In this document: positions 6,027 to 25,085 of the stretch, piece by piece
Layout of the letters: each line of letters opens with the position of its first letter
Numbering within the stretch: position 1 is the first letter of the stretch
Source: Spirochaetota bacterium
Lineage (GTDB): Bacteria; Spirochaetota; UBA12135; COTS27; JAFLEE01
DNA: 40,618 nucleotides
Direction: 5' to 3'
NCBI GenBank assembly: GCA_017302015.1
Contig: JAFLEE010000048.1
Coordinates: 1 to 40,618 of the forward strand
Translations under genes and position numbers: made by a program
The notes under the pieces: generated by a model
What the model was told of the DNA's origin: nothing
The model's database searches: none
What the model saw: the letters and a program-made list of their open reading frames with translations, nothing else

Positions 6027-6692
6027 ATGCGTATCCGAAGTGATTTTTTCCTCATCGCGTTTGCTCTGACCGGGTTGGTCCTTCCCGCGTTCGCCGGCGA
6101 AAAATCCCTGACCGTCATCGAAGTGCGCCCGGCTTGGGAGAAATTTCCCCCGGCGGATTTCGGCACCAATGCGGTGCGACTCGAATCCCTCCCGATCGAC
6201 GCCATCACCAACCTCACCGCCCGCCACACCGGGATGATCCGCGCCTCCCGCCTGGCGTGGCTCGGGAATTTCGCGAGGACGAACCTCGAGCGCGACGGGG
6301 GGTTCAAGACCCACGTCGAGGTCGGCATGGCTTATGCCCAAAATCTGTTCTATTCCGAGGCGCTCGAATGGATGCAGCGCGCCCTCGCCCTCAACCAGAA
6401 CTCGAGCTACGTCTACAATAACCTCGCCAACGTGTATTACCTCTCGGGCGACATCCCCCTCGCGCTCACCAATTATTTCCTCGCCCTCTCCATCAGCCGC
6501 AACGACCCCCGCACCCTGCTGAACCTCGCCTTCATCCACTACGAGACCGGCCTGCCGCAGGAGGCCAAGAAATTCTACCTGAAGGCGATCCTCATCGATC
6601 CCGCCCTCGACCGCCCGGAATACCAGGTGCTCGCCGGCGACGAAAAACCCCCCGCCACCGCATCCCCCAACGCATCCCCCGCCCGTCGCTGA
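6027..6692 (+). CDS. Exported TPR-repeat protein
   Basis: The 221-aa product begins with a clear Sec signal peptide (MRIRSDFFLIAFALTGLVLPAFA, cut before GEK). The mature part carries two to three tetratricopeptide units (around AQNLFYSEALEWMQRALALN, VYNNLANVYYLSGDIPLAL and LNLAFIHYETGLPQEAKKFY), a fold that mediates protein-protein contacts. It ends in a short Pro/Ala-rich tail. A TTG at 6006 would add seven residues, but the ATG at 6027 places the signal peptide correctly. It is the first gene of the operon, 22 bp before the FecR-domain protein. TPR units also form the second half of that neighbour, so the two may interact. No enzymatic motif is visible; a periplasmic scaffold role is an inference. 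Confidence 0.8.
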   Translation: MRIRSDFFLIAFALTGLVLPAFAGEKSLTVIEVRPAWEKFPPADFGTNAVRLESLPIDAITNLTARHTGMIRASRLAWLGNFARTNLERDGGFKTHVEVGMAYAQNLFYSEALEWMQRALALNQNSSYVYNNLANVYYLSGDIPLALTNYFLALSISRNDPRTLLNLAFIHYETGLPQEAKKFYLKAILIDPALDRPEYQVLAGDEKPPATASPNASPARR

Positions 6693-6714
6693 AAACCCAA
6701 GGAGAGGTCCATCC

Positions 6715-7635
6715 ATGAAAACGTCCAAGTTCGCCGTTCTGCTGCTCGCGTGCATCGCGACGGTCGCGTTCGCCGCCACCAAAGAGATCAAGGTCACCAA
6801 GGTGACCGGCCAGGTACGCATCCTCCAGGGAAGCGAGAGCGCCCCGGCCATGGTCGGCCAGGTCCTGCCGGCGGGCAGCACCATCAAGACCTATACGGGC
6901 GCCCAATTGGCCCTGAGCATCGATGGCACCGCCAAGGTCATCAGCGAGAACCGCACCGTCCCCGTGTCCGTCCTCGCCGGCGGCGATAGCGGCCTCGAGA
7001 ACGCCACGAGCCTCATCGGCAAGCTCACCGCCCGCGGCTACACCGGCGGGGGCGCCTCGAGCGTCGCCGGCGTGCGGGGCGCGGAGCAGGGCAAGAAGGG
7101 CTCCTTCGGGGTCCAGTGGCAGGGGCAGGCCGCCTCCCGTCCGGTGGCGGGCGCCAATGCCACGAGCGATCTCGACCAGGCGCGCGCGCTTTGCGAAGCC
7201 CAGGATTTCGAGGGCGCCATCGCCAAACTGAATAGTTTCATCGCGGCCAGCAACGACGACCAGGCCAAGGCGCGCGCCCAATTGCTCCTGGCCCAGGCCG
7301 ACCTGGAATTGGCCCGGAGCGCCGACGCGCTCAAGGCCGCCGATGCCGGGCTGAAACTCGCCCCCAAAGACGCCGCCGTCTCCGCTCAATTGCGTTTCGC
7401 GGCCGTCAGCGCCGCCTGGTTCTCCGGGAAGGCCGATGCCGCGGTCGCCGCGGTGGACGTCCATTTCCCGGCCTCCGCCGCCGCCGGCGACGAATATTGG
7501 AACGCCCAGGTCATCAAGGTCCTGGCACTCAAGACGATGGGGAACAAGTCGGCCGCCAAGAAACTCAAGGCCGAAGTCTCGACGGCCTGCCCCAACGATG
7601 AAATCGTGGCGGCCGTCGCGCAAATCTCCTTGTGA
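6715..7635 (+). CDS. Secreted FecR-domain protein with C-terminal TPR-like helices
   Basis: A good AGGAGAGG lies just upstream of the ATG. The 306-aa protein has a signal peptide (MKTSKFAVLLLACIATVAFA) followed by a FecR-type beta domain. That domain opens VTKVTGQVRILQGSE, passes through VGQVLPAGSTIKTYTGAQL and closes with the diagnostic SSVAGVRGAEQ. From about residue 155 the protein is Ala-rich and helical, with TPR-like repeats (AQLLLAQADLELARSADALKAADAGLKLAPKD). Classical FecR proteins are inner-membrane anti-sigma regulators; this one lacks a transmembrane anchor and no sigma factor is nearby, so a different, exported role is likely. A second FecR protein occurs at 21226 beside a similar barrel gene. 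A GC-rich hairpin follows the stop. Confidence 0.85.
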   Translation: MKTSKFAVLLLACIATVAFAATKEIKVTKVTGQVRILQGSESAPAMVGQVLPAGSTIKTYTGAQLALSIDGTAKVISENRTVPVSVLAGGDSGLENATSLIGKLTARGYTGGGASSVAGVRGAEQGKKGSFGVQWQGQAASRPVAGANATSDLDQARALCEAQDFEGAIAKLNSFIAASNDDQAKARAQLLLAQADLELARSADALKAADAGLKLAPKDAAVSAQLRFAAVSAAWFSGKADAAVAAVDVHFPASAAAGDEYWNAQVIKVLALKTMGNKSAAKKLKAEVSTACPNDEIVAAVAQISL

Positions 7636-7642
7636 TCCGAAG

Positions 7643-7672: not shown

Positions 7673-7726
7673 GCTTCCGTCTCCCGCGGGCGGAATCTCC
7701 CCCCGAGCGGGCATTCGGCGGTTTCC

Positions 7727-9643
7727 TTGAAGCGTTATATTTTTTCCCTCGCGCTCGCCCTCTGCCTCCTCGGCGCGCCGGCGTTCGCCAGTTTCGAGTA
7801 CGCCGCCACGGCCGGCCGGGGCGATACCGGCGTGGCGATCGGGGGAGGATCCCTCTCCCTGGCCTTCAATCCCGCCGTCCTCGGCACCCTCTTCTATTGG
7901 GAAGTCAGCGGGATGTACCAGCAGCCCTATTGGCAGAACCTCCACCAATTCGCCGGCTCCTTCGCGGCGAGCCTGGGGGGGAAATTGAACCTCGGGCTGG
8001 TGGGCGACGGGATGGTCTTCGACGACGCGGAGTTGGGCATCACCCGCATCGGGGCGACCGCCGGGGTGGCCCGGGGGCTCTTTCCCGGGGGCTACGGCGG
8101 GGTGGCGCTTCGGGTGAACTATAACGGCACCACCCTCGACCGCCAGCAGACCTGGAGTTCGGTGGATGTGGGCGCCGACCTGGGCTTCCTCTACCGGGGC
8201 TTCCCCTTCGTCAAGAACGAGAAGCTCTCGGCCATCCTCGCGCCGCTCTCCCTCGGCTTCGCGCTGCGCAATTTCATCGTGATGAAGGGGGATTCCACCA
8301 ACCAGGCCGGCTCGGGGTTCTCGCTGGAGGGTTGGCGGGCGGGCCTCTCCTACACCTTCTTCAACCTCGTGAGCCTTTCCCTGGATAGCGGCGGCGAAAC
8401 CCTCAATCTGGGGGCCGAGTTCTACATCTCGCCGTCGATCCTGCGCCGCGCGACGCCGGGGCACCGGCGCAACGACACGCTCCAGGACACCTTCCTCACC
8501 CTGCGCGCCGGGCTCGTGCGCCACCGCAGCTCCCCGAACTTCTCGAATTATTTCTCCGATCTGGGCTCCCTCTTCGGGGACGTGTTCGCGCTCAACCAGG
8601 GAGAGGCCGGACGGCCCTCCATCACCTTCGGCGCGGGAATTTCGGTCTTCCAATTCGACATCAACTATGCCGGGATCCTCGACAATGCCCTCGCCCTCGA
8701 CCACCGCTTCTCCGTGGGCTACCGCTTCGGCTACGAGGACAGCTACCTCCAGCCCTCCGAAGTGAGCCTGCGCAACCTCTTCAGCGCCCTGGGCAAATCC
8801 TACGGCCGAAACCCGGTGGGTTCGCTCAAGCTGCGCAATACCTCGGCCCAGGTGCTCACCGCGGAACTGGGCTTCTTCGTGAAGGGGCTCATGGACAGCC
8901 CCACCACCGAGCAGGTGGTGCTGCGGCCCCGCTCCGAGCGCATGGTCGACCTGCACGCGGTCTTCAACGAATCGATCCAATCCTTCAAGAGCGACAAGCC
9001 CATCCAGGGGCAGATCTCCATCCGCTACAAGTACCAGGGCAAGACGATCCAGAAGAATCTCTCGAAGAATTTTCTCATGTACGACCGCAACTCCATCACC
9101 TGGGACGATCCCCAGCAGGTCATGGTCTTCGTGACCCCCCGCGATCCCGTCGTGATGGAGTTCTCGCGCAAGGCGCTCGAGACCCTGGGCACGAACCACG
9201 CGAGTTTCCTCTCGCCCGTCTTGGCGAAGGCCATGGCCGTCTTCGACGCCGTCGCCGCCTACGGGATGACCTACGTGACCTCGGCCTCGGGGGCCTTCGC
9301 CTCGGACAAGAGCACGCGCAGCCAGATCGACACGGTCCAGTATCCCCGGGAGACCCTGAAGCTCCGCGCCGGCAAATGCGGCGACACGACCGTGCTCTAC
9401 GCCTCCCTTCTGGAGAGCGTGGGCATCCAGACCGCCTTCGTCGACATCCCCGGCCACGTTTTCCTGATGTTCAACACCGAGGTGCCCGAGGCCAACGCCA
9501 CCATCATCTCCCCCGACCCCGCCGATTACGTGCTGCGCGACGGGACCGCCTGGGTGGCGGTGGAGACCACGGTCTGGAAGGATGGCTTCGTGGCGGCCTG
9601 CAAAGAAGGCATGCTGGAGTACTGGAAATGGGTGAAACGATGA
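7727..9643 (+). CDS. PorV/UPF0164-like outer-membrane barrel fused to a transglutaminase-like domain
   Basis: I start this at the TTG at 7727, because it is the only start that puts a signal peptide at the N-terminus (KRYIFSLALALCLLGAPAFA); the frame is open further upstream inside the FecR gene. The 638-aa product has three parts. Residues about 20-350 read as an outer-membrane beta-barrel of the PorV/UPF0164/FadL-like kind (GDTGVAIGGGSLSLAFNPAVLG, then amphipathic strands). A beta-rich linker follows to about 450. The last part is a transglutaminase/cysteine-protease-like domain. Its core RAGKCGDTTVLYASLLESVG provides Cys551, PGHVF provides His577, and Asp597 in PDPADY is a candidate third residue. 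Such domains cross-link or cleave peptide bonds. The stop overlaps the ATG of the next gene (ATGA), so translation is coupled to the giant repeat protein, its most likely partner. Confidence 0.75.
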   Translation: MKRYIFSLALALCLLGAPAFASFEYAATAGRGDTGVAIGGGSLSLAFNPAVLGTLFYWEVSGMYQQPYWQNLHQFAGSFAASLGGKLNLGLVGDGMVFDDAELGITRIGATAGVARGLFPGGYGGVALRVNYNGTTLDRQQTWSSVDVGADLGFLYRGFPFVKNEKLSAILAPLSLGFALRNFIVMKGDSTNQAGSGFSLEGWRAGLSYTFFNLVSLSLDSGGETLNLGAEFYISPSILRRATPGHRRNDTLQDTFLTLRAGLVRHRSSPNFSNYFSDLGSLFGDVFALNQGEAGRPSITFGAGISVFQFDINYAGILDNALALDHRFSVGYRFGYEDSYLQPSEVSLRNLFSALGKSYGRNPVGSLKLRNTSAQVLTAELGFFVKGLMDSPTTEQVVLRPRSERMVDLHAVFNESIQSFKSDKPIQGQISIRYKYQGKTIQKNLSKNFLMYDRNSITWDDPQQVMVFVTPRDPVVMEFSRKALETLGTNHASFLSPVLAKAMAVFDAVAAYGMTYVTSASGAFASDKSTRSQIDTVQYPRETLKLRAGKCGDTTVLYASLLESVGIQTAFVDIPGHVFLMFNTEVPEANATIISPDPADYVLRDGTAWVAVETTVWKDGFVAACKEGMLEYWKWVKR

Positions 9644-12600
9644 CGACCCTTCGGCATCTGGCTCTCGTGGTGGCGGCGGTCCTGGCCCTCTCGGTGCCCG
9701 CGCGGGCGGCCGTCTCGATTCCAGCCGAGTACCTCCCCGATGCATCGGTCTGGATTTCGGGGGTCGTTTCGAACGCGACCAACGTGGATGCGGGGGTGGG
9801 CCGATTCATCAGCAACGTGGTCATCACCACCAACGGCAGCTTTGCCACCAATTTCACGGGGCCGTGCGCGCGGCTGCTCGATTGGTTCCTCGTCGTCGAT
9901 ACCGCCACCTGGGCGGATGGGACGAACCTGATCGCCGTCTTCGCCACCAATACCAACAACCAAACCGACTCCAACACCTTCTTCCGCCTCGTGGACAATT
10001 CGGGACCCCGCCATGCCGCCACGACGCCCAGTGGTTGGGTGAGTTCCAACACCAATCTCCGGGGGAGCATCCTACGCACGAATTCGATCATGGCGGGCCC
10101 GGTGGTGGTGCGCATCGGCACGAACCAGGCGAATGCGGTCGAGTATCTGGTGACGAATTGGACGACCAACGGCGCGAGCAACCTCTACACCCTCGCGTTC
10201 CCCACCACGAACCTCCCCAATGGAACGAACACGGTTTGGGTGACGGTGACCAACGGGGCCACCCCCGGCGTGGCCTCCACGACGAACTACCCATTGCTGG
10301 TGGATAACGGCTCCCTTGCGCTGAACGTCGCGGCCCCCGGGGCGTGGCAGAGCGGAACCGCCTCGTTCACCGGGCAGATCTTATGCAGCAACGCCGGGAT
10401 CCTCACGAACCTCCTGGCGCGGGTGGGCACCAACCTCTTTCCGGCCACGGCGGTGGATGCGGGGGGTGGCTCGACGAACTACACGGTGCAATTCGCCATC
10501 GACACGACGGCGCTATCGAATGGAAGCAATACCCTCGTGGTCGCGGTGACCAACGGGTCGACTCCGGCTGTGGTGCTCACCAACACCTACCTCTTCCTTG
10601 TGGATAACGGGGCGCCCAAGATCTCCACCACCCTTTCGCCCTCGGCATGGTTGAGTTCCAATTTCATGCTCACGGGGACGCTGGCGCTGACGAACTCCGG
10701 GGTGACCGGAAAACTCCTGGTGATCATACAGGGGTCGACCAATGTGGTGGCCCTGACGTCTACGGCCTCCAATTTCGAGTGGATCATGGGCGTGGGGACG
10801 AACGGACTCCTCGACGGGTCGAACCTCGTTCAGATGATCGCATCCAACGGGGCCGTCCCCCCCATAACGGCGACCTCCAATTTCACCCTGCTCTTCGACG
10901 GCCGAGCCCCCGAGCTCTCCGCGACCGTGGCCACGAATTGGGTCAGCGGCACCAACGTGATCGCGGGGGTCGTCGCCCGGACGAACTCGGGCCTGGGCGG
11001 GCCGATCCTGCTCCAGGTGGGGACCAATGTCTATCGGGTGTTCCCCTCCCAGACCAACGCCGCGAGTTATGTTTTCAGCACCAATCTCCAGACCAGCAAT
11101 TTCCTCGACGGGACGAACGCCGTCACGATCATCATGACCAATGGGGCGAATCCGCCGATCCTCGCCACCTCGAATTTTTCCCTCTGGGTGGACAACCGCC
11201 CCCCCGGGATCTCCAGCAGCCTCGCCGCGGGGCTCTGGCGGAGTTCCAACGTCGTCTACGCCGGGAATATCCGCGCGCCGGCCTCGGGGTTGCCGGCGGC
11301 CGTCAAGCTCACCCTCGGCGCCCTCGTGACCAACGTGGCGGTGACGCCCACCGACGCGTTCCTCACCAACGGAGCCTTCTCCGTCGATTTCCCCACCAAT
11401 TATTTCACCAACGGGTCCAATCCGGTGGGGGTGGAGGCGACGAATAACGCGGCGCCCGGCGTGTGGGCGGCGACCAACGAAGCGGTGCTCATGGACCGCC
11501 AAGCGGCGCTGCCCGCCGCGCTGTCGCCGACGAATTGGTCCCAGGGCAACGCGGTCACCCTCTCGGCGATGTTGACCAACCGGCATTCCGGCGTCGCGGC
11601 GGTCGCCCTGCGCGTCGGGGGCCAAGCGTGGGCCGCGACCGTGGTGACGAACGGCGCCAGCAACTTGACCTTCTCCGTCACCGTGGACACGACGGGGGCC
11701 GCGTTCACCAACGGCACCAACGCCGTGGTCGTGGAGGTGACCAACGGGGCGACGCCGCCCGTGGTGGCGAGCAACGCCTTCCCCCTCCTGGTGGACAACC
11801 AGTACCCGGCCCCCGCGACCAACCTCGATGTCGCGCCCACGGCTTGGTTGATGGGCGCGACCAACCTATCGGGGACCCTCGTGCCGTCGGCCTCGGGGCT
11901 CGCGGGCATCCGCGTTCAGGTCGGAACCAACCAGTACACCGTCGGCCTCGCCACCAATGCCTCGAATCTCGTGTGGTCGGTGAGCTTGCCGACGACCGCC
12001 CTCTCGAACGGGCCGACGAACCTGGTCGTGTGGGCGTCCAACGCCTCCGCGCTCCTCACGAACCAATCGTATGCCCTCCAGATCGATAATTTCCGCCCGG
12101 TGCCGACGAACGCCATCGCCCCGGCCGGTTGGTTGGGCGCGGTGCAGGTCCTCTCCGGGAGCGTCCTCCAGCCCTATAGCAGCCTCTCGTTCCTCGGGCT
12201 CACGCTGGGTGGGCAGGCCCTCACCAATGGCGTCGTCATCGCCACCAATGCGGGGTCGGTCACCTACCAAGCCACGGTCAATACCTCCAATTGGGCCAAC
12301 GGCACCAACCTCCTCGTGGTGGTCGCCTCCAACGCCTCGGGCCCCGGCCTGGGGACCAACCAAGCCTATCCGGTGCGCATCGACAACGATCCGCCCCAAT
12401 TTCCCGCCGCCTTCGCGCCCACCAATTGGGTGCGGGGCGCGGCCCTGAGCGTCACGGGGACCGTCGTCGAATCCAACGCCCGCGTCTCCTCGGTGAGCTT
12501 CAGTTACATCGATGGCGCCGGCCTCCCGGCGAGCGCCGCCGCCGCGGTCACGACGAACGCCGTGACCAACGGGTGGACCCTCACGATCGATACCACGACG

Positions 12601-15285
12601 CTCTCCAACGGTTCCGTGCCCCTCGACGCGGTGGCCAGCAATGAGGTGAGCCCGGTCGGCACCGGGGCGCGCCGCTTCACCCTGCTGGTGGACAACGAGG
12701 CCCCCGTGGTGCAGGCGTGCGCGGTGCGCAACGTCAGCCAAACCAACGCCTGGTTCGACCTGGTCTCCGACGATTTCGCGCGCTCCGGGGTGGTGCAGTA
12801 CGTCTTGTCCAACCTCTCCAACGCCTCCATGTTCACCAACGTCACCGTCTCCAACGCGACGCCCCTGAGCAACGTGTTCTCGTTCAACCTGGTGCGGCCC
12901 TTCTCCAACAGCCTCCAGGCCTGGACCGTGCGGGCCCGGGACGCCCTCTCCAACGTTTCCGCCCCGGTGACGAACCTCTTCGAGTACGACATCGTCTCCA
13001 ACGCGGGCCCCATCGTCACCAACGGCGTCGTGGCCCAGAATGCCGCGGTCACCCTCTATTTCAAGGAGCCCATCGCCCCCGCCGCCATCTTCGACACGCG
13101 CAATTTCTACGTCTCGGCGGTCCCCGGGAATTACACCACGCAATTGATCCCCACGGCGGCCGCGCTCAGCGCCGACCAACTCAGCGTGACCCTCACCCCC
13201 CTCTCCGATCTGGGGCAGGGGGTCACCCGCTACTTCAACCTGTCGACCAACGTGGCCACCGTGGCGGGGGCGCGGCCCATCTCCAACCGCGCCTACCCGT
13301 TCACCACCCTCGGGCCCATGAGCGTCAGCAATTCGAGCGTCGCCGGATCCCTCCTCGGGATCAAGCCCACGATCCGGATCACCTTCAGCCTCGATGTGGT
13401 GCCCGCGACGGTCAACGAGCAGAGCCTCCATTTCTACCGGAACGACCAGGCCACCAACCAGTTGCACTACACGATCGTCCCATTGGCGGGCACGCCCACC
13501 TATCAACTCTCCCTCGACGAGCCCCTGGCGCCCCTGACCAACTACACCCTCGTGATCGACACGAATATCCAGGCGACCAACGGCGCCCGGCTCACGAACA
13601 ACGCGGTGTGGGCCTTCACCACCTCCGACTCCTTCAAGTACTCCACGCTCACCCCGCAATTCTTCAATGTGCCCCTCAATGTCCGCCCGAGCATCAAATT
13701 CCTCACCAACATCCTCGCGGCGTCGATCACCAACCCCTCGCCCCAATTGACCCTCTCGGCCACGGCCTCCAACGGCACCCTGACGCCGGTCACCGGGAAC
13801 GTGGTGCTGACCAATAACGACACGGTGCTCTTCATCCCCGCCACCAACCTCGTCGTGAACACGACCTATGTGGTCACCGTTTACGGGAGCATCATGTCGG
13901 TGGGCAGCAACCTCTTCGGGCAGATCCTCAGTTGGGAGTTCACCACGGGCGACCCCGTCGCCCCGCCCTATGCCACCGTACCGGCCGCCGGCGCGGCGGG
14001 CGTGCGCCTCGGCACCGCGGTGAGCGCGGCCTTCACCAATACGCTGACCCTCGACAGCGCGAGCGTCTCCGTGGACAGTTTCTACCTCTTCACCTACGTC
14101 GACACCAACGGCAACCCGGTGAAGGTGCCCGCGACGACGGTGGTGAAGGACTACTCCAATTTGCTCCTCACACCGGCCGTGCCGCTGGACCCCTCGCGGG
14201 CCTATCAGGCCGTGATCACGACCAAACTCCGCTGGTCCGACGGGAACGGCCTGGACTCCAACCGGTCCTGGACCTTCACCACGGCGGCGGCCCTGGGCGC
14301 GCCCACGGCCCTGGTGCCGGCGAGCGGGGCGACCTTCGTCGAACCCAGCACCCCCGTGAACGCCACCTTCGCCGAGGATCTGCGCATCGACACGGTCACC
14401 GCGTCGTCGTTCGGCGTGGTGGACGCCGACACGGGAGATCCGGTCTCGGGCACCGTCAACTACCTCAATCGAAGGATCTCCTTCCTGCCGAAGGATCCGC
14501 TCAAGGTCGGGAAAAAGTACACGGCGACCATCCAGAAGGGCATCCTCTCCGCCAACGACACGCCGCTTTCCCAGGCCGTCTCATGGACCTTCTCCATCGG
14601 GGCCTTCGTCGGGCCCGCCGGCGGCAAGGTGAGCACGCCCGACGGGGCCTTCACCCTCTTTTTCCCGCCCCGGGCCCTCGAGCGCGACACCCTCATCCAG
14701 ATCACCCCGAAGGAACCCGACGGTTCGGAGCAATCGACGGCCCCCGGCGCGGTCTTCCCCGCGGGAACGAGTTTCGAGATCGGGCCTTCCGAGACGCCGT
14801 ATCTGAAGCCCGTGGCGGCCACGTTCAATTTCGCCCAGACCCCGGCCGCGGGGATGAAGGACCTCGCCATCTACCGTTGGAACTCCGGCCAATGGACCCT
14901 CGTCGGCGGCAGCCGGGATGGCACTGAGATCGCCTTCACGCTGCGCAGCCCCGGGCGCTATAGCCTCGTCCAGGGCGGATCCGGGAGCGCCGAGGGCGCG
15001 GGAATTTCATGCTACCCGCGGGTGGCCACCCTGGCCGAGGGGATGCACATCTCCTTCTCCTTGGCCCTGCCGAAGAACGGGCGCATCCGGATCTACCACG
15101 TTGGGGGGGCCCCCATCCGCGAACTCACCGGGTCGCGCGGGCTCAACGCCGGCGACAATACGTTCTTCTGGAATTGCAAGGCGGATGACGGGCGCGCCGT
15201 GGCGCCCGGGGTGTACATCATCGTGGTGGAAGACGCGGGCTTCAAGCGGGTCCTCGAGAAAATCGTGTCGGTCGTGCGTTCATGA
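9640..15285 (+). CDS. Giant secreted Asn/Thr-rich Ig-like repeat protein with FlgD/T9SS-like tail
   Basis: This 1,881-aa exported protein starts in the ATGA overlap with the barrel-transglutaminase gene. A signal peptide (MTTLRHLALVVAAVLALSVPARA) precedes nine tandem repeats of 97-103 residues. Each has a core like LSNGSNTLVVAVTNG and ends in a [VI]DN-type linker, the pattern of bacterial Ig-like folds (usually DGT...VTATD) with Asn replacing Asp. From about 13,000 there are about five SbsA/Big_5-like domains, each closing with W-x-F-T-T. A ZU5-like domain follows (GPAGGKVSTPDGAFTLFFPP), and the end is a FlgD/T9SS-type Ig domain (GRIRIYHVGGAPIREL, then APGVYIIVVE). The composition is extremely rich in TN and SN pairs and in N-G-[ST] sequons. 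An adhesin or surface-layer filament role is inferred; no catalytic motif is visible. Its stop overlaps the next start by 4 nt. Confidence 0.85.
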   Translation: MTTLRHLALVVAAVLALSVPARAAVSIPAEYLPDASVWISGVVSNATNVDAGVGRFISNVVITTNGSFATNFTGPCARLLDWFLVVDTATWADGTNLIAVFATNTNNQTDSNTFFRLVDNSGPRHAATTPSGWVSSNTNLRGSILRTNSIMAGPVVVRIGTNQANAVEYLVTNWTTNGASNLYTLAFPTTNLPNGTNTVWVTVTNGATPGVASTTNYPLLVDNGSLALNVAAPGAWQSGTASFTGQILCSNAGILTNLLARVGTNLFPATAVDAGGGSTNYTVQFAIDTTALSNGSNTLVVAVTNGSTPAVVLTNTYLFLVDNGAPKISTTLSPSAWLSSNFMLTGTLALTNSGVTGKLLVIIQGSTNVVALTSTASNFEWIMGVGTNGLLDGSNLVQMIASNGAVPPITATSNFTLLFDGRAPELSATVATNWVSGTNVIAGVVARTNSGLGGPILLQVGTNVYRVFPSQTNAASYVFSTNLQTSNFLDGTNAVTIIMTNGANPPILATSNFSLWVDNRPPGISSSLAAGLWRSSNVVYAGNIRAPASGLPAAVKLTLGALVTNVAVTPTDAFLTNGAFSVDFPTNYFTNGSNPVGVEATNNAAPGVWAATNEAVLMDRQAALPAALSPTNWSQGNAVTLSAMLTNRHSGVAAVALRVGGQAWAATVVTNGASNLTFSVTVDTTGAAFTNGTNAVVVEVTNGATPPVVASNAFPLLVDNQYPAPATNLDVAPTAWLMGATNLSGTLVPSASGLAGIRVQVGTNQYTVGLATNASNLVWSVSLPTTALSNGPTNLVVWASNASALLTNQSYALQIDNFRPVPTNAIAPAGWLGAVQVLSGSVLQPYSSLSFLGLTLGGQALTNGVVIATNAGSVTYQATVNTSNWANGTNLLVVVASNASGPGLGTNQAYPVRIDNDPPQFPAAFAPTNWVRGAALSVTGTVVESNARVSSVSFSYIDGAGLPASAAAAVTTNAVTNGWTLTIDTTTLSNGSVPLDAVASNEVSPVGTGARRFTLLVDNEAPVVQACAVRNVSQTNAWFDLVSDDFARSGVVQYVLSNLSNASMFTNVTVSNATPLSNVFSFNLVRPFSNSLQAWTVRARDALSNVSAPVTNLFEYDIVSNAGPIVTNGVVAQNAAVTLYFKEPIAPAAIFDTRNFYVSAVPGNYTTQLIPTAAALSADQLSVTLTPLSDLGQGVTRYFNLSTNVATVAGARPISNRAYPFTTLGPMSVSNSSVAGSLLGIKPTIRITFSLDVVPATVNEQSLHFYRNDQATNQLHYTIVPLAGTPTYQLSLDEPLAPLTNYTLVIDTNIQATNGARLTNNAVWAFTTSDSFKYSTLTPQFFNVPLNVRPSIKFLTNILAASITNPSPQLTLSATASNGTLTPVTGNVVLTNNDTVLFIPATNLVVNTTYVVTVYGSIMSVGSNLFGQILSWEFTTGDPVAPPYATVPAAGAAGVRLGTAVSAAFTNTLTLDSASVSVDSFYLFTYVDTNGNPVKVPATTVVKDYSNLLLTPAVPLDPSRAYQAVITTKLRWSDGNGLDSNRSWTFTTAAALGAPTALVPASGATFVEPSTPVNATFAEDLRIDTVTASSFGVVDADTGDPVSGTVNYLNRRISFLPKDPLKVGKKYTATIQKGILSANDTPLSQAVSWTFSIGAFVGPAGGKVSTPDGAFTLFFPPRALERDTLIQITPKEPDGSEQSTAPGAVFPAGTSFEIGPSETPYLKPVAATFNFAQTPAAGMKDLAIYRWNSGQWTLVGGSRDGTEIAFTLRSPGRYSLVQGGSGSAEGAGISCYPRVATLAEGMHISFSLALPKNGRIRIYHVGGAPIRELTGSRGLNAGDNTFFWNCKADDGRAVAPGVYIIVVEDAGFKRVLEKIVSVVRS
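9991..12690 (+). repeat. Nine tandem ~300-bp units encoding Ig-like repeats
   Basis: The linker codons for [V/I/F/M]D[N/G/R] recur at 9991, 10300, 10600, 10894, 11188, 11491, 11791, 12082, 12379 and 12688, a spacing of 291-309 nt. A degenerate tenth unit precedes 9991. The units have diverged in sequence, so the repeat is old and protein-level rather than a recent DNA duplication. Confidence 0.85.
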
Positions 15286-16606
15286 GGCCCGCGGCGGCTT
15301 GCCGGACGGCGGCCCTGGCCGCCTTGGCGTTCCTGGGCGGATGCGCCCGGGCGCCCGAAACCCGTACGGTGGTCGTCACGAATTTCATCAAGGTGCCGGG
15401 CGCCGGCGGGGCGGTCACCCAGGTCCGCTACGTCGTCGTCCCCGTCACGAATTTCGTGACGGCCACGCTGACGAATTACGAGACGATGACGGTCACCAAT
15501 TTCGTCACGGCCACCGCCACGAATTTCACCACGGCGGTGCTCACCAATTACGAGACGGCCACGCTCACGAACTTCGCCACGGCGACGCTCACCAATGTAC
15601 AGACGACCGTGCTGACGAACTTCGCCTCTGCCACCCTCACCAATTTTGCGACGGCCGTGCTCACGAATTTCGCCACCGCGGTGCTCACCAATTTCGCCAC
15701 GGCGGTGCTTACGAACTTCGCCACTGCCGTGCTGACCAATTTCGCCACCGCGGTGGTGACCAACTTCGCCACCGTCGTCGTCACCAATGTGCGCGAAGTG
15801 GAGGGCGCCGCCGCCAGTGCCCCCGTCAAGCGCGCCCGAACCGGGGCCCTCTTCTGGGCCCAGTACGAGCCGCCGCTGATCCGAACGGTGACCTTGGAGG
15901 GAGCCTCCCCAAAATCGGTCATCACCGCCGGCCTCATCCATCCCATGGGGCTCGCGGTGGACGGGCCCGGGCGCCGCCTCTACTGGACCGATTTTTCGAA
16001 GGGGGATTTGTGGACCTCCGGCCTGGACGGCAGCGCGCCGCGCGTGCTCATCCCATTGGGATCGGAGAGCCCGTTGGCCCTCACCCTGTCGATCGACCGT
16101 CAAAAACTGTACTGGACCGTCCTGGGTGTGAACAACGTGTTCTATGCCCGCGTCGACGGCAGCGCCCGGGGACTGACCCGTCTGCTCGATCCGGTGGAAC
16201 CCTTCGGTCTGGCGGTGGACGAGGCCCGGGGCTATTTCTATTACATCAAACTCCGGGGGAAGCTCATCCGCCGCGTGAAACTCGACGGGTCCGAACTCAC
16301 CGACCTCGTGACCTCCGGCCTCCACAAGCCCACGACGCTGCGGACCCCGACGAGGGGCGGCTCTTCTGGATCGATACGGGCAGCGGCCGCATCCGCAGCT
16401 GCGCCGCCACCGGCGGGGAGGAGCGGGATGTGGTCTCCTCCGGCCTCTCGTTCCCCTACGGCCTGGCCCTGGACCCGGCGCGCAAGGAGATCTATTGGAG
16501 CGACCTCGGCACCCGCTGCCTGATGCGCGCCGATTATTCGGGCCGGAAAGTGGAAACCGTCTTCGAGGCCGGCGACGCGGAGCCCCGGGCCATCGTCCTG
16601 GAGTAG
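15282..16606 (+). CDS. Lipoprotein with octapeptide-repeat stalk and YWTD beta-propeller (single-base frameshift)
   Basis: The gene starts in an ATGA overlap with the giant protein. A lipobox (LAFLGGC, Cys21) marks it as a lipoprotein. Residues 55-174 are about 15 copies of the octapeptide L-T-N-F-A-T-A-V. The rest is an LDL-receptor-type YWTD propeller: LYWTDFSKGDLW, LYWTVLGVNNVF, FYYIKLRGKLI, LFWIDTGSGRIRS and IYWSDLGTRCLM. The fourth and fifth blades lie in a different frame. After CTG at 16338-16340 one base is missing from what should be [G]CG GAC CCC GAC, and the other frame continues to a TAG at 16604. Restoring the base gives 441 aa; as written, translation ends at 16523 with a nonsense tail. 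Either the assembly has an error or the allele is recently broken. YWTD propellers usually bind proteins, so a tethered surface receptor is plausible. Confidence 0.75.
15444..15791 (+). repeat. 24-bp tandem repeats encoding an octapeptide stalk
   Basis: About 14-15 consecutive 24-nt units encode [LVA]-T-N-[FYV]-x-T-x-[TV]. The last several units are identical at protein level (LTNFATAV five times) but differ in synonymous codons (ACGAATTTC, ACCAATTTC, ACGAACTTC). The repeat is a multiple of three, so copy-number changes would keep the frame. Confidence 0.9.
16338..16346 (+). other. Probable single-base deletion (frameshift site)
   Basis: The frame that encodes the first three propeller blades stops making sense here, and the -1 frame resumes with DPDEGRLFWIDTGSGR. 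Length arithmetic supports one lost base: 15282-16606 is 1,325 nt, one short of a multiple of three. Confidence 0.75.
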
Positions 16607-16641
16607 GGGAAGGATCCGCCGCAAGATGCCATAATGAGGCC

Positions 16642-18655: not shown

Positions 18656-21229
18656 ATGAAAATTGCCCGAACCCTGTTCCTCCTATCGGCGATGCTGGGA
18701 CCCCTTGGCGCCCAGGTCGTCCCGTTCTTCGAGGTGACGCCTTCGGTCATCACCAACGCCACCACGCCCGTGGTGCTGCGCTACCTGAGCAATGTGGGGG
18801 CCATCGCCACGCTCACCAATATCCAATGGGATTTCGGCGACGGGAAAATCGTGAGCGGGGGTTCCTTCTTCACCAACGCCACCAATTTCTATAACGCGAC
18901 GAACCTCTACCTGGCGACCCTCACGCTGCTCTACGATAACGGGAACATCGGCGTCGCCGCCATGCCCGTGAACGTCTCCGTCTACCAACCGGGTTCCATG
19001 TGGCAGCGGGTCGGGGAACCGGCCAATCTCCCCGTGCGGAACCTGGGAGCCTTCTGGGTTACGCCGCTGGGGATTGTCGCGGGCACCGGCGTGCTGGGCG
19101 GAAGCACCGCGGTCTTGGGGACCTTCGGCAGCGACAACGGCGGCGCATGGGCGCCGATTCTACCCATCGCCCCCTATCCGCCCCGCGCGGGCGGAGGCTA
19201 CGCCATGGGGGGCGGGAACGCATGGATCCTCGGGGGGATGCGCACCAACGCGGTGCGTTCCAACGACGTGTGGTCGTGCGCCGATGGAACGATTTGGCAG
19301 CAGGCCACCCCGGTGGCCCCCTGGGCCGGCCGCGACGTTTTCGGCGCGGCGTATTACCACGGGCGGCTCTGGGTCACGGGCGGGCATTTGAACGCCATCG
19401 CGATGCCGACCAACGACGTTTGGTCGAGCGCCGATGGGGCGACTTGGGTGCAGCACACCAACACGGCCCCCTGGGGCCCGCGGGAGCGGCATACGCTCGC
19501 CGTCCTCAACGACCGCCTCTATCTCATCGGCGGCTTCTCCAATCTCGGCGTGAACGACGTGTGGTCGACCCAGGACGGCACCAATTGGGTCCTCGAAAAT
19601 CCGGCCGCCCCGTTCGGCCCCCGATTCGACCATCGGGTGACGGTGGCCGAAGGCCGCATCTGGATGACCGGCGGCCACGACGGCGCCGTGTATAAGCGCG
19701 ATGTGTGGTTCAGCCCCGATGGGGCGGTCTGGCGTCGGGCCACCGGCAACGCCCCGTGGTCTCCCCGCCGCAATCACGGCTTTTTCTATTACAAGGGGAA
19801 CCTGGTGTTAGTCGGCGGCGACACCAATGGCGGGGAAAACTCGGAGATCTGGGCGACGCGTCTGGTTGCCGATGCCGCCCTCCCGGACCAGGCCCAATTC
19901 GAGATGAACGCGGGACGTTGGCGCTTGGTGGGCTTGCCCCTCTCCAACGCCGCCCTCAATCCCGGGGCGGTCTTCTCCAATCTCGGGGCGAGCGAACTCT
20001 GGGCCTGGGACCCCGGCGCCAAGACCAATGGCGCCCTCCTTCAGTACGTCCGGCCGCAGGCCCTCACCCCGACCGCGGGGTATTGGCTCCTTTCCGAATT
20101 CGCCCTCAACCTGAGGGCGAACGGCACGCCGCCCTCCCAGCCCGCCTTCGCTCCCCTGGTGGGGGGCAATTGGAACCTGCTTGCCAATCCCTTTCCGTAT
20201 CCCTTGGATCAGTCCTCCTTGAGGATCACCACCGGGCCTTCCAATTTCATGGCGGGGCAAGCCCTCGCGTCCCGCGGGGATCTCGTCGATGCCCAGAGCG
20301 TGTTCGCCTATGCGGTCCAGGGCGCCGCGGGCTACGTGCGGATCAACTCCAATCAATCGATCCCCGCGGGGGCCGGTTATTGGTTGTGGGTCCATTCCAA
20401 CGCCTTCTTGGCGATGCCTCCGGTGCCCGGGGTGAACCCGGTGCCGCCGGGTTACTTGGGCCTTGCCCAAACGCCGCCGCCCGCGGCGCCTCCCGGGGCC
20501 GTCTCGATGCGATTGGGTTATACGGCGGGCGATCAAATCGACCGGGAAAGCGTCCTCACCCTCTCCCGAGACGTGGCCGCTTCCAGTTCCCCCAAACCCC
20601 CCGCGCCGCGGGACCACGCGAGCCTCCAATTATGGGCGGGCAATCGCTCGGTTTCAGAACTGGTGCGCCCCTTGGCGAAGGGTATCCAGCGCTATCCCTT
20701 TACCATAAGCGGCGGCCGGCCCGGCGTCCGCTCCACCCTCGCCTGGGACCTCGCGCCGAGCCCCGGCTGGTGGGTGTTCGTTCGCGACCTCGCCACCGGC
20801 GCCTTGGTGGATGCCTCGGCCCAGAAAACGATCCACTACACGGTCGCTTCGATGGGGACGAGCCGTACCTTCGAGGTGGTCGTGGCGCCCGAGGGCGCCG
20901 CGCTCTCTTCCCTGGCGGGGTTTCGGCTCGCGAATGTCGCGCTCTATCCGAATCCGGCGCCCCAGGGGAGCCTCCTGACGCTCCGCCTCGACCTGGACCG
21001 GGAGGTCACCCTCTCGCTCGAAATCCGCGACGTGCTCGGTCGCCTTCGGGCGCACCAGGAGCGCAGCGCCTGGGCCGATCCCTGGCAATCCACCTTGTGG
21101 GCTCTCCCGATGGAACAAGACGGCCGCCCCCTCGAACCGGGGCTCTATGGCTGGAGGCTGATCGCGCGGAGCGCCGCGGGTGAAACCGCTCAAACGACCG
21201 GGAAACTCCAAATCACGGGGACGAAATGA
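18656..21229 (+). CDS. Secreted PKD/Kelch-repeat protein with T9SS-like C-terminal domain
   Basis: An AAGGGAG sits 8 nt before the ATG at 18656. The 857-aa product has a signal peptide (MKIARTLFLLSAMLGPLGA) and a PKD-like domain (IQWDFGDGKIVSGG). About five Kelch-type propeller repeats follow (NDVWSSADGATWVQHTNTAP, LYLIGGFSNLGVNDVWSTQD and so on). A domain with paired GYWL and NWNLLANPFPYPLD motifs, frequent in type IX-secreted proteins, comes next. The last about 90 residues (NVALYPNPAPQGSLLTLRLD, LSLEIRDVLGRL, LEPGLYGWRLIARS) match the T9SS type-A sorting domain or FlgD-Ig family. It is also rich in TN pairs near the N-terminus. A surface-exposed binding or structural role is inferred. Its stop overlaps the FecR-gene start by 4 nt. 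Confidence 0.85.
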   Translation: MKIARTLFLLSAMLGPLGAQVVPFFEVTPSVITNATTPVVLRYLSNVGAIATLTNIQWDFGDGKIVSGGSFFTNATNFYNATNLYLATLTLLYDNGNIGVAAMPVNVSVYQPGSMWQRVGEPANLPVRNLGAFWVTPLGIVAGTGVLGGSTAVLGTFGSDNGGAWAPILPIAPYPPRAGGGYAMGGGNAWILGGMRTNAVRSNDVWSCADGTIWQQATPVAPWAGRDVFGAAYYHGRLWVTGGHLNAIAMPTNDVWSSADGATWVQHTNTAPWGPRERHTLAVLNDRLYLIGGFSNLGVNDVWSTQDGTNWVLENPAAPFGPRFDHRVTVAEGRIWMTGGHDGAVYKRDVWFSPDGAVWRRATGNAPWSPRRNHGFFYYKGNLVLVGGDTNGGENSEIWATRLVADAALPDQAQFEMNAGRWRLVGLPLSNAALNPGAVFSNLGASELWAWDPGAKTNGALLQYVRPQALTPTAGYWLLSEFALNLRANGTPPSQPAFAPLVGGNWNLLANPFPYPLDQSSLRITTGPSNFMAGQALASRGDLVDAQSVFAYAVQGAAGYVRINSNQSIPAGAGYWLWVHSNAFLAMPPVPGVNPVPPGYLGLAQTPPPAAPPGAVSMRLGYTAGDQIDRESVLTLSRDVAASSSPKPPAPRDHASLQLWAGNRSVSELVRPLAKGIQRYPFTISGGRPGVRSTLAWDLAPSPGWWVFVRDLATGALVDASAQKTIHYTVASMGTSRTFEVVVAPEGAALSSLAGFRLANVALYPNPAPQGSLLTLRLDLDREVTLSLEIRDVLGRLRAHQERSAWADPWQSTLWALPMEQDGRPLEPGLYGWRLIARSAAGETAQTTGKLQITGTK

Positions 21230-22458
21230 AACCGCATCCAATTCCCTTCCTTCTCCTGCCCGTCCTCGCCGCCCTGCTTTTGGGCCCGCTCCTCGCCGCG
21301 CCGGCCGAATTGGTGGGGGTCGAGGGGACGGTGGAACTCACGCGGGTCGATGGGGAGGCGCCCAAGGCCTGCAAGGTGGGCGACCGGCTCTATGTGGGCG
21401 ATCGCCTGCGCACCTTGGCCGGGGCGGGGGCCCAAGTGCGCTTCGCCAACGGTTCCCTGACCGCGGTGGGAGAGAAGACGATCTTCACGGTGCGGAGCCT
21501 GGAGGAGGGCACCTCGATGAAGGTCGGCCTCAACCTCGCCTCGGGCTCGCTCTTTAGCGCCATCAAAAAACTCGGCGCCAACGAGCAGTTCACCGTCCAT
21601 ACCCCGTCCGCCGTGGCCGGGGTGAGGGGAACCGAACTCGGGGTCCAGCACGAGGGGCGCCGGTCCCTCATTACCGTGCACCAGGGCCGGGTGGCCGTGA
21701 CCGCGATGGGCCAACCGGCCTCCATGCTCGATGCGGGGCAGGCCGCGGAAATCGAGGAGGGCGGCGCGGCGATCGTGCGCGCGTTGCAGGAGGATGAACG
21801 CGCCCGGGGCGCCGGATTTTTCGGGCGCCTCACCAATGCCCAACGCCCGGCCAACGGGAGCAATCTCCAAGCTCCGCCGGGAGGCACGAACGGCTCCACG
21901 AACATGGCGCGGCCCGGGGGCCGGCGGGCCCTCCTCAATATCCTGCAGCCCATAAGGCCGCCCTATCTCGCGGGCGTCGCCGAGAAGGGGGCCCGAATCA
22001 CCGTCAAAGTCAACGATCGCCAGGCGGGAGAGGAGCGCTCCCTCGCCTCCGCCGCCTTCCGCTTCAACCTCGATGGCGCGCTTCGGGAGGATCCCCTCGG
22101 GGAAAAGCCCAACCGCGTGGACGTGCGGGCGGAGAATGCGGACGGCGCCACGGCCCAGGCCTCCTTCACCGTCTTCTGGGATCGCACGCCGCCTTCGCTC
22201 TCCGGCCTCGTCTGGCGCCTCGTGCCGGGGCGCCTGCTCATCGAGGGCGGGATCGGGGAGGCCGGAATGCTCATGGTCGCCGGCGTGCCGGTGCCCTTGG
22301 ATCCCCATGGGCGGGTGATCCCCGGCTTCGGCATCCCCTTGGAGCGGGTCGTCGAAGGGGTCAACGCCGTCTTCGCCTCCGATCGGGCGGGCAACCGGGT
22401 GAACGCTAATTGGGTGGTGAAGAAGCCGCGCCAGCCGCCCCCGCCCCCGGCGCGCTGA
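21226..22458 (+). CDS. Secreted FecR-domain protein with Ig-like and Pro-rich C-terminus
   Basis: The start is in an ATGA overlap with the Kelch gene. After a signal peptide (MKPHPIPFLLLPVLAALLLGPLLA) comes a complete FecR domain. It opens LVGVEGTVELTRVDGE, continues GDRLYVGDRLRTLAGAGAQV and FANGSLTAVGE, and closes with TVHTPSAVAGVRGTELGV. Residues about 240-395 read as two beta-sandwich (Ig-like) units (FTVFWDRTPPSLSGLVW, NAVFASDRAGNRVNANWV), and the protein ends in a KPRQPPPPPAR tail. No transmembrane anchor or neighbouring sigma factor is seen, so it is not a classical FecR regulator; binding to surface polymers or to the adjacent barrel is inferred. It is the second of two such genes in the window and is better conserved in the FecR core. 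Confidence 0.87.
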   Translation: MKPHPIPFLLLPVLAALLLGPLLAAPAELVGVEGTVELTRVDGEAPKACKVGDRLYVGDRLRTLAGAGAQVRFANGSLTAVGEKTIFTVRSLEEGTSMKVGLNLASGSLFSAIKKLGANEQFTVHTPSAVAGVRGTELGVQHEGRRSLITVHQGRVAVTAMGQPASMLDAGQAAEIEEGGAAIVRALQEDERARGAGFFGRLTNAQRPANGSNLQAPPGGTNGSTNMARPGGRRALLNILQPIRPPYLAGVAEKGARITVKVNDRQAGEERSLASAAFRFNLDGALREDPLGEKPNRVDVRAENADGATAQASFTVFWDRTPPSLSGLVWRLVPGRLLIEGGIGEAGMLMVAGVPVPLDPHGRVIPGFGIPLERVVEGVNAVFASDRAGNRVNANWVVKKPRQPPPPPAR

Positions 22459-22468: not shown

Positions 22469-23377
22469 ATGCGTCCGGTCGTATTTGTTCGGATTCTCGT
22501 GCTCGTCCTCCCCGTCGTGGCGGGGGGCGTGTTCGCCGCCGGCAAGCCCCTGTACTCCGAATTGGGGGGCCTCACCCAGGCGTGGTTGGAAATCGGCTCC
22601 ACCGTCGCCCGGGGGGAGGGCGCCCTGGCGGTGATGGAAAATCCGGCCGGCTTGGCGTTCTCCCGCCACTTCGAATTGGCCGCCAGCGCCCAATGGCCCA
22701 CGGGGTGGACGGGCGCGACCGGCAGCGAGTTCGTCGCCCTCGCCATGGCCGCCTCGATACCCATGGGCGGGTCGACCCAGGGGCGCCATGCCTTGGGCGT
22801 GCAGGGGATCTGGCTGGATGCGGGGGGCCTCTCCAGTTATGATGCCCGCGGAAATTGGCTGGGCGACCGGAAGACCACCTGGGGCGAGGGCGCGCTTTCC
22901 TGGGGCGTGAGGCTGGTGCCCGGTCTGGGCCTCGGCGTCGGCGTGCGGGTGGCGGCGCCGGAATGGGCCGAAGAAGCGCCGAGCGGGGCCCTATGCGCCG
23001 GGTTACAGGCCCGCCTATTCCCCGGCGATCGCCTGGCCCTGGCCTTCCTCGTGGAAAGCCCCTGGTGGGATGATCCGACCCCCTCGCCGGAACTCCGCCT
23101 CGGGGCCTCCTTCCGTTTCCTCCCCGAACTGGCCCTCGGCGCCGAGTCGCGCTGGGTGCCGGGCGACGACCCCCAGGCGCGCTTGGGCCTCACCTTCCTC
23201 CCGCTTCGGGCCCTCCGCCTGGGGGCCGGCTTGGCCCTTCGCGGGGCGACGGAAGACGGGCTGGGCGCCTTCTTCGGCTTGGAACTCCGCCTCGCGCGAC
23301 TCGCCATCACCCTGACCCACGCGGGCGCCGTGGGCCAGTCAGACATCCTCGCCCTTGGAATACGACATGCTTGGTAA
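22469..23377 (+). CDS. PorV/UPF0164-like outer-membrane protein
   Basis: The 302-aa product carries a signal peptide (MRPVVFVRILVLVLPVVAGGVFA). The N-terminal signature GGLTQAWLEIGSTVARGEGALAVMENPAGLAF is the hallmark of PorV/UPF0164/FadL-type barrels. Alternating amphipathic strands follow to a C-terminal aromatic residue (IRHAW), the usual signal for outer-membrane insertion. In Bacteroidetes PorV works with the type IX secretion channel and an attachment complex; here it sits next to a gene with a T9SS-like tail, but no T9SS core gene is visible. An AAAGG precedes the ATG by about 5 nt. The 3' end overlaps the next gene by 11 nt. Confidence 0.78.
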   Translation: MRPVVFVRILVLVLPVVAGGVFAAGKPLYSELGGLTQAWLEIGSTVARGEGALAVMENPAGLAFSRHFELAASAQWPTGWTGATGSEFVALAMAASIPMGGSTQGRHALGVQGIWLDAGGLSSYDARGNWLGDRKTTWGEGALSWGVRLVPGLGLGVGVRVAAPEWAEEAPSGALCAGLQARLFPGDRLALAFLVESPWWDDPTPSPELRLGASFRFLPELALGAESRWVPGDDPQARLGLTFLPLRALRLGAGLALRGATEDGLGAFFGLELRLARLAITLTHAGAVGQSDILALGIRHAW

Positions 23378-25085
23378 ACCCCTCCTCTTCGCCGTCCTTT
23401 TCGCCCTTCCCCTCGGGGCCCAGCTGCGCCCCGCCAGCCCCGCGGGATCGATCTCGGGGATGAGCACGTTGGAAACCGGCTACCTCTTCCACAATAACGG
23501 CCTCCTCGATCCGACCCAAGACGGCGATGTGCTCATGGCGCCCGGCTGGAACCCGCGCCTCAAGCAATTATTCTCCGGGGTCGGCTCCGGCTTCAATTGG
23601 ACCTTCCTCCTGGACATGGCCTACAACAAGCAGGTGGATAGCCTCATGCGGGAAACCTGGCTCACCGCCGCCGAGTCCAATTTCAAAACCACCCCCCTCG
23701 AACGCGCCGAACGCCTCATCGACACCTTGACCTTCTCCATGGAGACCCCCCTTTGGCGCTTCACCTTGGGCGACCAGACCCCCGACCTGGGGGGGCTCGT
23801 GCTCTCGGGGAAACGGGTGCGCGGCCTTCACCTCGACGCCGATGGGGGCGCCTGGCGCCTTTCGGCCTTCGGGGGTTGGTCGAGCCCGCGCCTCATGGCC
23901 CTCACGGAAAGCGAGACCAATTCGAGTTTCGACACGAATAACGATCTCGACCAGAACGGCTACCTCACCCAGAACCCGACCCCGGCCTACCGCCGCTTCT
24001 CCGCGGGCGCCCTCCTCGGGGGAGTCCCGGTGAAAGGATGGCGGGCCTCGCTCTCCGCATACTATGAAGAAGACGCCACCAATGCCGTGGGCTCCAACGA
24101 GGCGACCGCCCTGCCGCCGGTCGCCCGGCTTCTTTTGGGTACGAGGCAGGATATCGGGGAGGGCCCCCTTCGCCTAGCCGTGGAGGGGAGCGTTTCGCGG
24201 GCGACCTCCAATCGTTTGGACGGGGAGGGCCCCCGTTGGGCTTTCGGAACGCGTTCCTCCCTCACCCTCGACCGACAGCCGGTGAAGGGGGTCCTCGGCG
24301 TGGCCTGGTACCAGCCCCATTTCACCCTCGGCGGCATCCAAACATTCTCGGAAGAGGATCGCCTGGAATCCACCCTCGACTTCGATGTCTCGGCCACGCC
24401 GGTCTGGGTGCCGGGCCTTTCCTACCGGCTCACCGGTCAGGCGGTCTCCGCGGGCCTCGTCGCCTCGAACCTGGAGCACGAGGGCCGACTCCGCCTCGGC
24501 GTTCGGCCCGACGAGAGGGCCGAACTTTTGGCCGAGTTCACCGGGCGACTGCGGGAGGGAGAACAAGACGCTGAACTTTCCCTCACCGCCCGGGACTTGG
24601 ACTTGAAGTTCACCCGCCTCTCCCCGGGAGTCCTCGGGCGCTGGTATGAACGCACCAATGCCCTCACCAACGCCCAGCGCGCCATCGAAGGCCGCTTGGA
24701 TACCCGAAACCGTTGGGGCGACGACCGCGTGAGCCTGGCGACCACCCACCGGTTTTCCTGGCGCATCGTGCCGGTGACGGCCGCGAGGGCGATGGAATGG
24801 AATAGCGGCTTCACGGCGGGCGCCAAACTCGTGCCCCGCCGATTAGGTGCGGATCTGGGCGCGAACGTGCAATTCCTCCATGAGGAACTCACGGGCACCA
24901 ATCAATTGACCCAGACGTGGCGCGTCAGCGGCCAAGTCGGGGCGACGTGGAACGTGAACGACCGTTTTTCGGCCGCGATCTCCTACCGGCCGGCCTGGGT
25001 GCAGGCGAGGGCCGACGGCGTGGTCGATCCACTGACCCAATTCACGGCCCACGCCGTGAACGTGGCCCTCACGGCGATGTACTGA
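23367..25085 (+). CDS. Predicted outer-membrane beta-barrel protein
   Basis: I start this at the ATG at 23367, which overlaps the previous gene by 11 nt and begins a signal peptide (MLGKPLLFAVLFALPLGA). The 572-aa product is rich in alternating polar/hydrophobic strands separated by Asp/Asn turns (for example FRFTLGDQTP-like and WRASLSAYYEEDATN segments) and ends in a Tyr (LTAMY), as outer-membrane barrels do. A porin or TonB-independent channel is possible; I recognise no specific family. Length allows 16-22 strands. It closes the second surface module and is the last plus-strand gene before a convergent minus-strand gene 11 bp away. Confidence 0.7.
   Translation: MLGKPLLFAVLFALPLGAQLRPASPAGSISGMSTLETGYLFHNNGLLDPTQDGDVLMAPGWNPRLKQLFSGVGSGFNWTFLLDMAYNKQVDSLMRETWLTAAESNFKTTPLERAERLIDTLTFSMETPLWRFTLGDQTPDLGGLVLSGKRVRGLHLDADGGAWRLSAFGGWSSPRLMALTESETNSSFDTNNDLDQNGYLTQNPTPAYRRFSAGALLGGVPVKGWRASLSAYYEEDATNAVGSNEATALPPVARLLLGTRQDIGEGPLRLAVEGSVSRATSNRLDGEGPRWAFGTRSSLTLDRQPVKGVLGVAWYQPHFTLGGIQTFSEEDRLESTLDFDVSATPVWVPGLSYRLTGQAVSAGLVASNLEHEGRLRLGVRPDERAELLAEFTGRLREGEQDAELSLTARDLDLKFTRLSPGVLGRWYERTNALTNAQRAIEGRLDTRNRWGDDRVSLATTHRFSWRIVPVTAARAMEWNSGFTAGAKLVPRRLGADLGANVQFLHEELTGTNQLTQTWRVSGQVGATWNVNDRFSAAISYRPAWVQARADGVVDPLTQFTAHAVNVALTAMY

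Follow-up and report, generated by a model that had tools for sequence, protein, structure and literature searches.

In Flavobacterium johnsoniae, type B cargos of the type IX secretion system (T9SS) require an SprF-like shuttle for secretion, usually encoded directly downstream (PMC12618676), and in Porphyromonas gingivalis, PorE, PorP, and PG1035 form a surface anchor complex (PMC9143113). A 2016 survey found the T9SS only in Bacteroidetes (PMC4793230), and a 2024 paper reported it in phyla of the Fibrobacteres-Chlorobi-Bacteroidetes group and absent elsewhere (PMC11285876); we found no description of a T9SS in Spirochaetota in the openly accessible literature. Here we describe two gene sets, modules 1 and 2, on a stretch of 40,618 nucleotides from a Spirochaetota bacterium (contig JAFLEE010000048.1 of assembly GCA_017302015.1; hereafter the window). 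Each set combines a secreted FecR-type protein, a PorV-like barrel, and a large secreted protein with a T9SS-like C-terminal tail. With a probability of about 0.6, module 1 serves a T9SS-like route of export across the outer membrane in Spirochaetota as a dedicated cargo-shuttle/anchor operon, and module 2 supplies another cargo together with a FecR protein and a PorV-like barrel of its own.

Within its 5.4 Mb assembly, the window is contig 109; its G+C content is about 65%. An earlier sequence-only reading had pointed to genomes of the Planctomycetes-Verrucomicrobia-Chlamydiae group and their relatives for comparison; an origin in that group was rejected, as the sequence matches are to Spirochaetota, and the named relatives of protein 7727 (genes are named here by their first position) come mostly from Spirochaetota/Spirochaetia bins. 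Our gene calling reproduced the grouping and all the genes of that reading, with the same junction overlaps (ATGA at 9640, 15282, and 21226; 11 nt at 23367-23377). Read directly from the sequence, the N terminus of every protein listed here is signal-peptide-like, including those of the FecR proteins, as had been claimed. Module 1 comprises the following genes:

6027 to 6692, plus strand: secreted tetratricopeptide repeat (TPR) protein, from Pfam TPR matches and a match to the profile of the TPR part that follows the transglutaminase-like domain in relatives
6715 to 7635, plus strand: secreted protein with a FecR-like domain and TPR-like repeats, from an hhalign comparison with the FecR profile
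7727 to 9643, plus strand: PorV/FadL-fold barrel followed by immunoglobulin (Ig)-like and transglutaminase-like domains, from AlphaFold2 (AF2) models and structure comparison
9640 to 15285, plus strand: giant secreted protein of 1881 aa with TN-rich Ig-like repeats, Big_5 domains, and a T9SS-like C-terminal tail, from Pfam and a tail profile

As in the SprB-SprF pair of the type B T9SS, a giant adhesin-like cargo with a C-terminal signal lies next to the gene of what would be its own shuttle barrel, in a genome that encodes an SprA-like protein. However, the barrel is of the PorV/FadL type and not of the PorP/SprF type, it is fused to a transglutaminase-like domain, it has a FecR partner, the phylum is another one, and GldM was not found. 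Module 1 also shares with PorE-PorP-PG1035 the association of cargo, barrel, and periplasmic partner in one set, although TPR, FecR, and transglutaminase pieces stand in place of PorE, with no PorE family match. Similar to PorV-PorU, which attaches type A cargos, a PorV-fold barrel is combined with a cysteine-enzyme-like domain of putative activity for a tail-bearing cargo, but PorU is a surface C25-type protease, matched here only by its C-terminal tail domain, whereas the transglutaminase-like domain should be periplasmic. The simplest reading, by analogy, would be an arrangement parallel to SprB-SprF or PG1035-PorP-PorE that uses PorV-type shuttles.

The sequence-only reading had called 7727 a PorV/UPF0164-like barrel. 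The AF2 model of residues 23-341, built with 11 homologues, does have the PorV fold; the transglutaminase-like domain behind it had been overlooked. Structurally, the barrel is best matched by PorV chains from the T9SS translocon, namely 8gl6_F (Z 28.7, with an rmsd of 3.0 over 271) and 6h3i_F (Z 28.3), and the N-terminal NPA motif that marks the hatch of FadL/PorV-type barrels is present in the alignment. Among its relatives, Pfam finds matches to UPF0164 and PorV, and in some of them to Toluene_X. Against the PorV family model NF033709, 7727 scores 22 bits, under the curated cut-off of 90, which some orthologues with the same barrel-transglutaminase fusion exceed (G036:C110). Beyond the barrel, an Ig-like domain (residues ~340-452) is followed by the transglutaminase-like domain (to ~635). 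The model of this half, made with 36 sequences from several phyla, has a pLDDT of 93 and a pTM of 0.88, and it matches 3kd4 (a putative protease), 1x3w (PNGase), and 3isr (a putative cysteine protease) with Z 9.2-9.6. Cys, His, and Glu are invariant in 36/36 sequences, and the corresponding residues of the window protein, C551, H577, and E613, form a candidate catalytic triad for a putative protease or cross-linking activity. The fold and the Cys-His-Glu residues place 7727 in the transglutaminase-like superfamily; Pfam matches to transglutaminase families are weak (PF01841, 17.3 with a cut-off of 23). The Ig-transglutaminase region (8744-9640 of the window) and all 36 homologues also match residues 71-270 of NF058533 (anti-phage ProA), with E-values down to 7e-18. 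Our literature search found no report of PorV with a transglutaminase or of anti-phage ProA with a transglutaminase, and no relatives of the barrel-transglutaminase protein were found in viral contigs.

In most relatives of 7727, the Ig-transglutaminase part continues into a TPR domain within one protein; in the window and in a genome of the same class (G003), the TPR part has a gene of its own upstream. The same split gene is seen in locus L053. Protein 6027, which the sequence-only reading had overlooked as a split-off part, as it had the T9SS connection, matches the profile of the relatives' post-transglutaminase TPR region over its full length and collinearly (E 1.3e-17); among the host loci that were examined, all other proteins match it far less well. 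On this evidence, 6027 is the counterpart of the TPR extension found at the C terminus of the barrel-transglutaminase protein in relatives. Both FecR identities had been claimed. That of 21226, in module 2, is confirmed by Pfam; 6715 has no Pfam FecR match (PF04773), but its family profile (six members) aligns with the FecR profile across the AGVRG core (hhalign, 98.7% probability, E 2.4e-16), and 6715 is, by profile comparison, homologous to FecR. The giant 9640 is indeed Asn/Thr-rich (N 8.3%, T 11.6%, with 73 TN dipeptides), and Pfam finds five Big_5 stretches (8e-43) and FlgD_ig at residues 1816-1864 of 1881 (E 0.003). The second large protein, 18656, for which the same composition had been claimed, is so only mildly (N 5.5%, T 6.5%), while the FlgD/T9SS-like tail was recovered in both.

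This neighborhood recurs in relatives. A giant with a homologous C-terminal region or a like tail lies directly beside the barrel-transglutaminase gene in ten loci, including the window, and among ten barrel-fused loci with visible flanks, seven, again including the window, have a FecR gene at most two genes away (p ~1e-10, binomial, with a background of 2% per locus, our own estimate from the number of FecR genes). In 60 Spirochaetota genomes, eight full-length members of the FecR-TPR family of 6715 were found (next match, E 9e-20), of which seven adjoin a transglutaminase gene and the eighth sits at a contig end; as six of the eight had served as profile seeds, this exclusivity counts for more than the number. 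Judged by these gene neighborhoods, module 1 forms a conserved system. For this module, the proposal of a conserved surface or secretion set outside sigma-factor signaling stands, and PorV-type barrels and large tail-bearing secreted proteins recur together in other genomes.

T9SS-like components are widespread in these relatives. TIGR04183 (Por_Secre_tail) matches up to 51 proteins per genome, many of them above the curated cut-off, and PorV-family matches reach 77 per genome. Three genomes of ~3 Mb stand apart by an extreme expansion of the PorV family (56-77 matches each). Among the 150 best matches of each kind, 46 tail genes have a PorV gene as their immediate downstream neighbor in the same orientation, with 0.37 expected and none in the reverse order. 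The sequence-only reading had suggested a search of related genomes for adjacent FecR and PorV genes and a test of whether large repeat proteins co-occur with them; for tail-bearing proteins and barrels, these pairs bear co-occurrence out. A tail profile built only from the TIGR04183-positive proteins of other genomes matches both window cargos (9640 at 4.1e-12, 18656 at 2.3e-5), which have the predicted architecture of T9SS cargos, a Sec signal peptide and an Ig-like C-terminal domain. Within the host genome, for which all statistics come from individually retrieved loci, it also matches genes adjoining PorV matches in seven loci, loci that had been chosen for their PorV matches. The same genome encodes a probable SprA-like protein of 2278 aa (G000:C16) with three collinear TIGR04189 matches, below the curated cut-off, and a profile of four Spirochaetota SprA-like copies matches F. 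johnsoniae SprA (E 4e-25). Such a protein is found in 27 of the 60 genomes, namely in 6/6 of those with a barrel-transglutaminase gene vs 21/54 of the others (p 0.006).

We propose that the giant 9640 would reach the periplasm by Sec and cross the outer membrane by way of the SprA-like translocon, whose gene is located elsewhere in the genome. Its C-terminal tail would then be captured by its own PorV-type barrel, 7727, holding 9640 on the cell surface. In barrels with this fold, the chain ends on the periplasmic side, as established for FadL, so the domain past the last strand of 7727 would face the periplasm. There, the Ig-like/transglutaminase-like part would make up a periplasmic foot together with 6027 (TPR) and 6715 (FecR-TPR). 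This foot may anchor the complex to the wall or process the cargo; candidate actions are anchoring, cross-linking, and cutting. A bolder version, of low probability, is a T9SS-like pathway with one PorV-type shuttle per cargo in which the PorV-transglutaminase fusion with FecR and TPR would be a new self-contained attachment or processing enzyme doing the job of PorU in Bacteroidota.

Module 2 would add another cargo, served by a FecR protein and a PorV-like barrel of its own but without a transglutaminase. It lies, together with a lipoprotein gene that overlaps the end of 9640, in the remaining genes:

15282 to 16523, plus strand: lipoprotein with TN-rich repeats and an LDL-receptor-B (YWTD) propeller, from the lipobox LGGC, the 4-nt overlap, and PF00058 (8.5e-6)
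18656 to 21229, plus strand: secreted PKD and Kelch protein with a T9SS-like tail, cargo of module 2, from Pfam and the tail profile
21226 to 22458, plus strand: secreted FecR protein of module 2 with the C-terminal end PRQPPPPPAR, from PF04773 (5e-14)
22469 to 23377, plus strand: PorV-family-like barrel of module 2 with an NPAGL motif, from NF033709 (E 0.006) and hhalign
23367 to 25085, plus strand: probable second outer-membrane beta-barrel of no detectable family, the barrel being suggested by the character of the sequence

The YWTD propeller of 15282 runs on in another frame after ~16.3 kb (16250-16640, plus strand), a frame slip near the 3' end that is a frameshift or an assembly error.

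The two modules had been described as repeating the same ingredients. The ingredients are shared, but the gene order differs, so that they have common ingredients and not a common layout. The FecR match of 21226 is clear (PF04773, 53 bits with a cut-off of 24). Protein 22469, proposed as a PorV-like barrel, is weakly so: it stays below the NF033709 cut-off (16 bits vs the curated 90), has no Pfam match, and aligns over its full length with the PorV-family set at E 1.2e-4 and 55% probability (hhalign). No match was found for 23367 in Pfam, NCBIfam, or PDB. Across genomes, there are six cases of a FecR gene no more than 1.5 kb downstream of a tail gene, with 0.43 expected (p 6e-6). In three genomes (loci L125, L126, and L127), a tail giant is followed by a ~310-aa barrel and a ~300-aa FecR protein ending in PPxPPxR; a large protein follows in L126 and L127, and the contig ends after the FecR gene in L125. 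The order in the window is tail protein, FecR protein ending in PPPPPAR, PorV-like barrel, and large protein. Protein 21226 agrees with the PPxPPxR proteins in the FecR domain and the end motif; its post-FecR part gave no significant match to them, so this kinship rests on domain and motif, and no homology was detected between 23367 and the large protein after FecR in relatives. As these two parts show no significant relationship to their counterparts, module 2 resembles those loci in kind, but identity of the modules is not proven, and it is looser than module 1.

The host genome holds at least two further sets. One (L034:7780-17585), a third module, encodes a FecR lipoprotein, an 817-aa protein with a marginal PorV match, a 1164-aa TPR/PQQ protein, and a NosD/PKD protein with a T9SS-like tail; the other (L040) encodes a FecR protein, a small protein, an M6 peptidase with a tail, and a PorV-like barrel. 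However, adjacency of FecR and PorV genes as a general rule, which the sequence-only reading implied, found no support: a PorV match less than 4 kb away was seen for 4/89 PF04773 FecR genes vs 4.5 expected. The strong links are those of tail gene with PorV, of FecR with the barrel-transglutaminase, and of tail gene with FecR; the data do not support a tie of FecR to barrels at large.

Several results weigh against the proposed operon. FadL fits the 7727 barrel almost as well as PorV (Z 27.9 vs 28.7). Neither 9640 nor 18656 is matched by TIGR04183 at E 0.1. The SprA-like identity has profile similarity as its sole basis, and a single-sequence search of the protein against PDB found nothing. The protease part of PorU was not found, NF033707 being matched only over its C-terminal tail region (~946-1095), nor was GldM (TIGR03517), with one match of E 0.008 among 12 genomes; GldL, GldK, and GldN were not searched for. 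As neither the PorU protease part nor GldM was found, the route is termed T9SS-like here and is not classed as a T9SS. Finally, in three Spirochaetota genomes, a barrel-less Ig-transglutaminase-TPR protein is directly followed by a FecR-TPR gene, and the association with FecR may thus be independent of export. This last result, with the existence of barrel-less Ig-transglutaminase-TPR proteins in several other phyla and the lack of FecR enrichment near PorV genes, would fit a core made of a transglutaminase-TPR-FecR unit that has a task of its own in the periplasm, in cell-wall or protein cross-linking or in proteolysis, to which barrel and giant were added later in some Spirochaetota, FecR being unrelated to export. 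We consider such a unit possible but doubtful, as the fused barrel has a tail giant beside it in nearly every visible case, all genomes with the fusion have SprA, and FecR genes also follow tail genes that have no transglutaminase domain. In five loci from records labeled Gallionellales/Nitrosomonadales, Desulfobacterales, and Nitrospiraceae, the barrel-less protein is followed by a secreted protein of ~136-148 aa.

LapG is a transglutaminase-like cysteine protease that acts on a giant adhesin. By that precedent, the conserved triad could belong to a periplasmic protease that frees the giant by cutting a retention part of it, while FecR senses a signal. Module 1 does place a transglutaminase-like fold near a giant surface protein, but the enzyme-like domain forms one protein with an outer-membrane barrel, the giant ends in a tail in place of bearing an N-terminal plug, no LapG, LapD, or other c-di-GMP receptor family was found by Pfam among the cluster proteins, and the LapA retention model NF033682 weakly matches the FecR protein 21226 (24.8 bits, cut-off 50) and not the giant, so that we find this release system unlikely. 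Even less probable is that the barrels are FadL-type importers beside unrelated adhesins: FadL, TodX, and CymD structures lie at most 2 Z units below PorV (the best by less than 1), and Toluene_X is matched by some relatives, but the systematic order of tail gene and PorV-family gene and the UPF0164 and PorV matches of the barrel relatives argue otherwise. Classical cell-surface signaling through a sigma factor, FecR, and a TonB receptor was already disfavored and is very improbable. The window proteins share the periplasmic domain of the FecR (PF04773) anti-sigma/sensor family but are fully secreted and fused to TPR or Ig-like parts; a signal peptide replaces the cytoplasmic anti-sigma domain, the barrel is not a TonB receptor, and, as the sequence-only reading had stated, no sigma factor gene accompanies the cluster FecR genes in the window gene list. 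That reading had also asked whether FecR genes elsewhere sit beside sigma factors: such pairs do occur in the host genome (L043) and, judged by eye, in related genomes, and two sigma factors are among the 57 proteins encoded up to three genes away from 11 other host FecR genes. In three Spirochaetota genomes, a gene recognized by eye only as ECF-sigma-like is followed by a ~190-aa gene and a FecR lipoprotein, which represents another type of surroundings for FecR.

From a biological perspective, the SprA-like translocons, the dozens of T9SS-like tails, and the one-to-one pairs of tail and PorV genes would extend the secretion logic of the T9SS to Spirochaetota. These genomes offer many natural cargo-shuttle pairs for testing specificity, and module 1 points to a new periplasmic enzyme, with a FecR partner, that may act in the anchoring of surface proteins.

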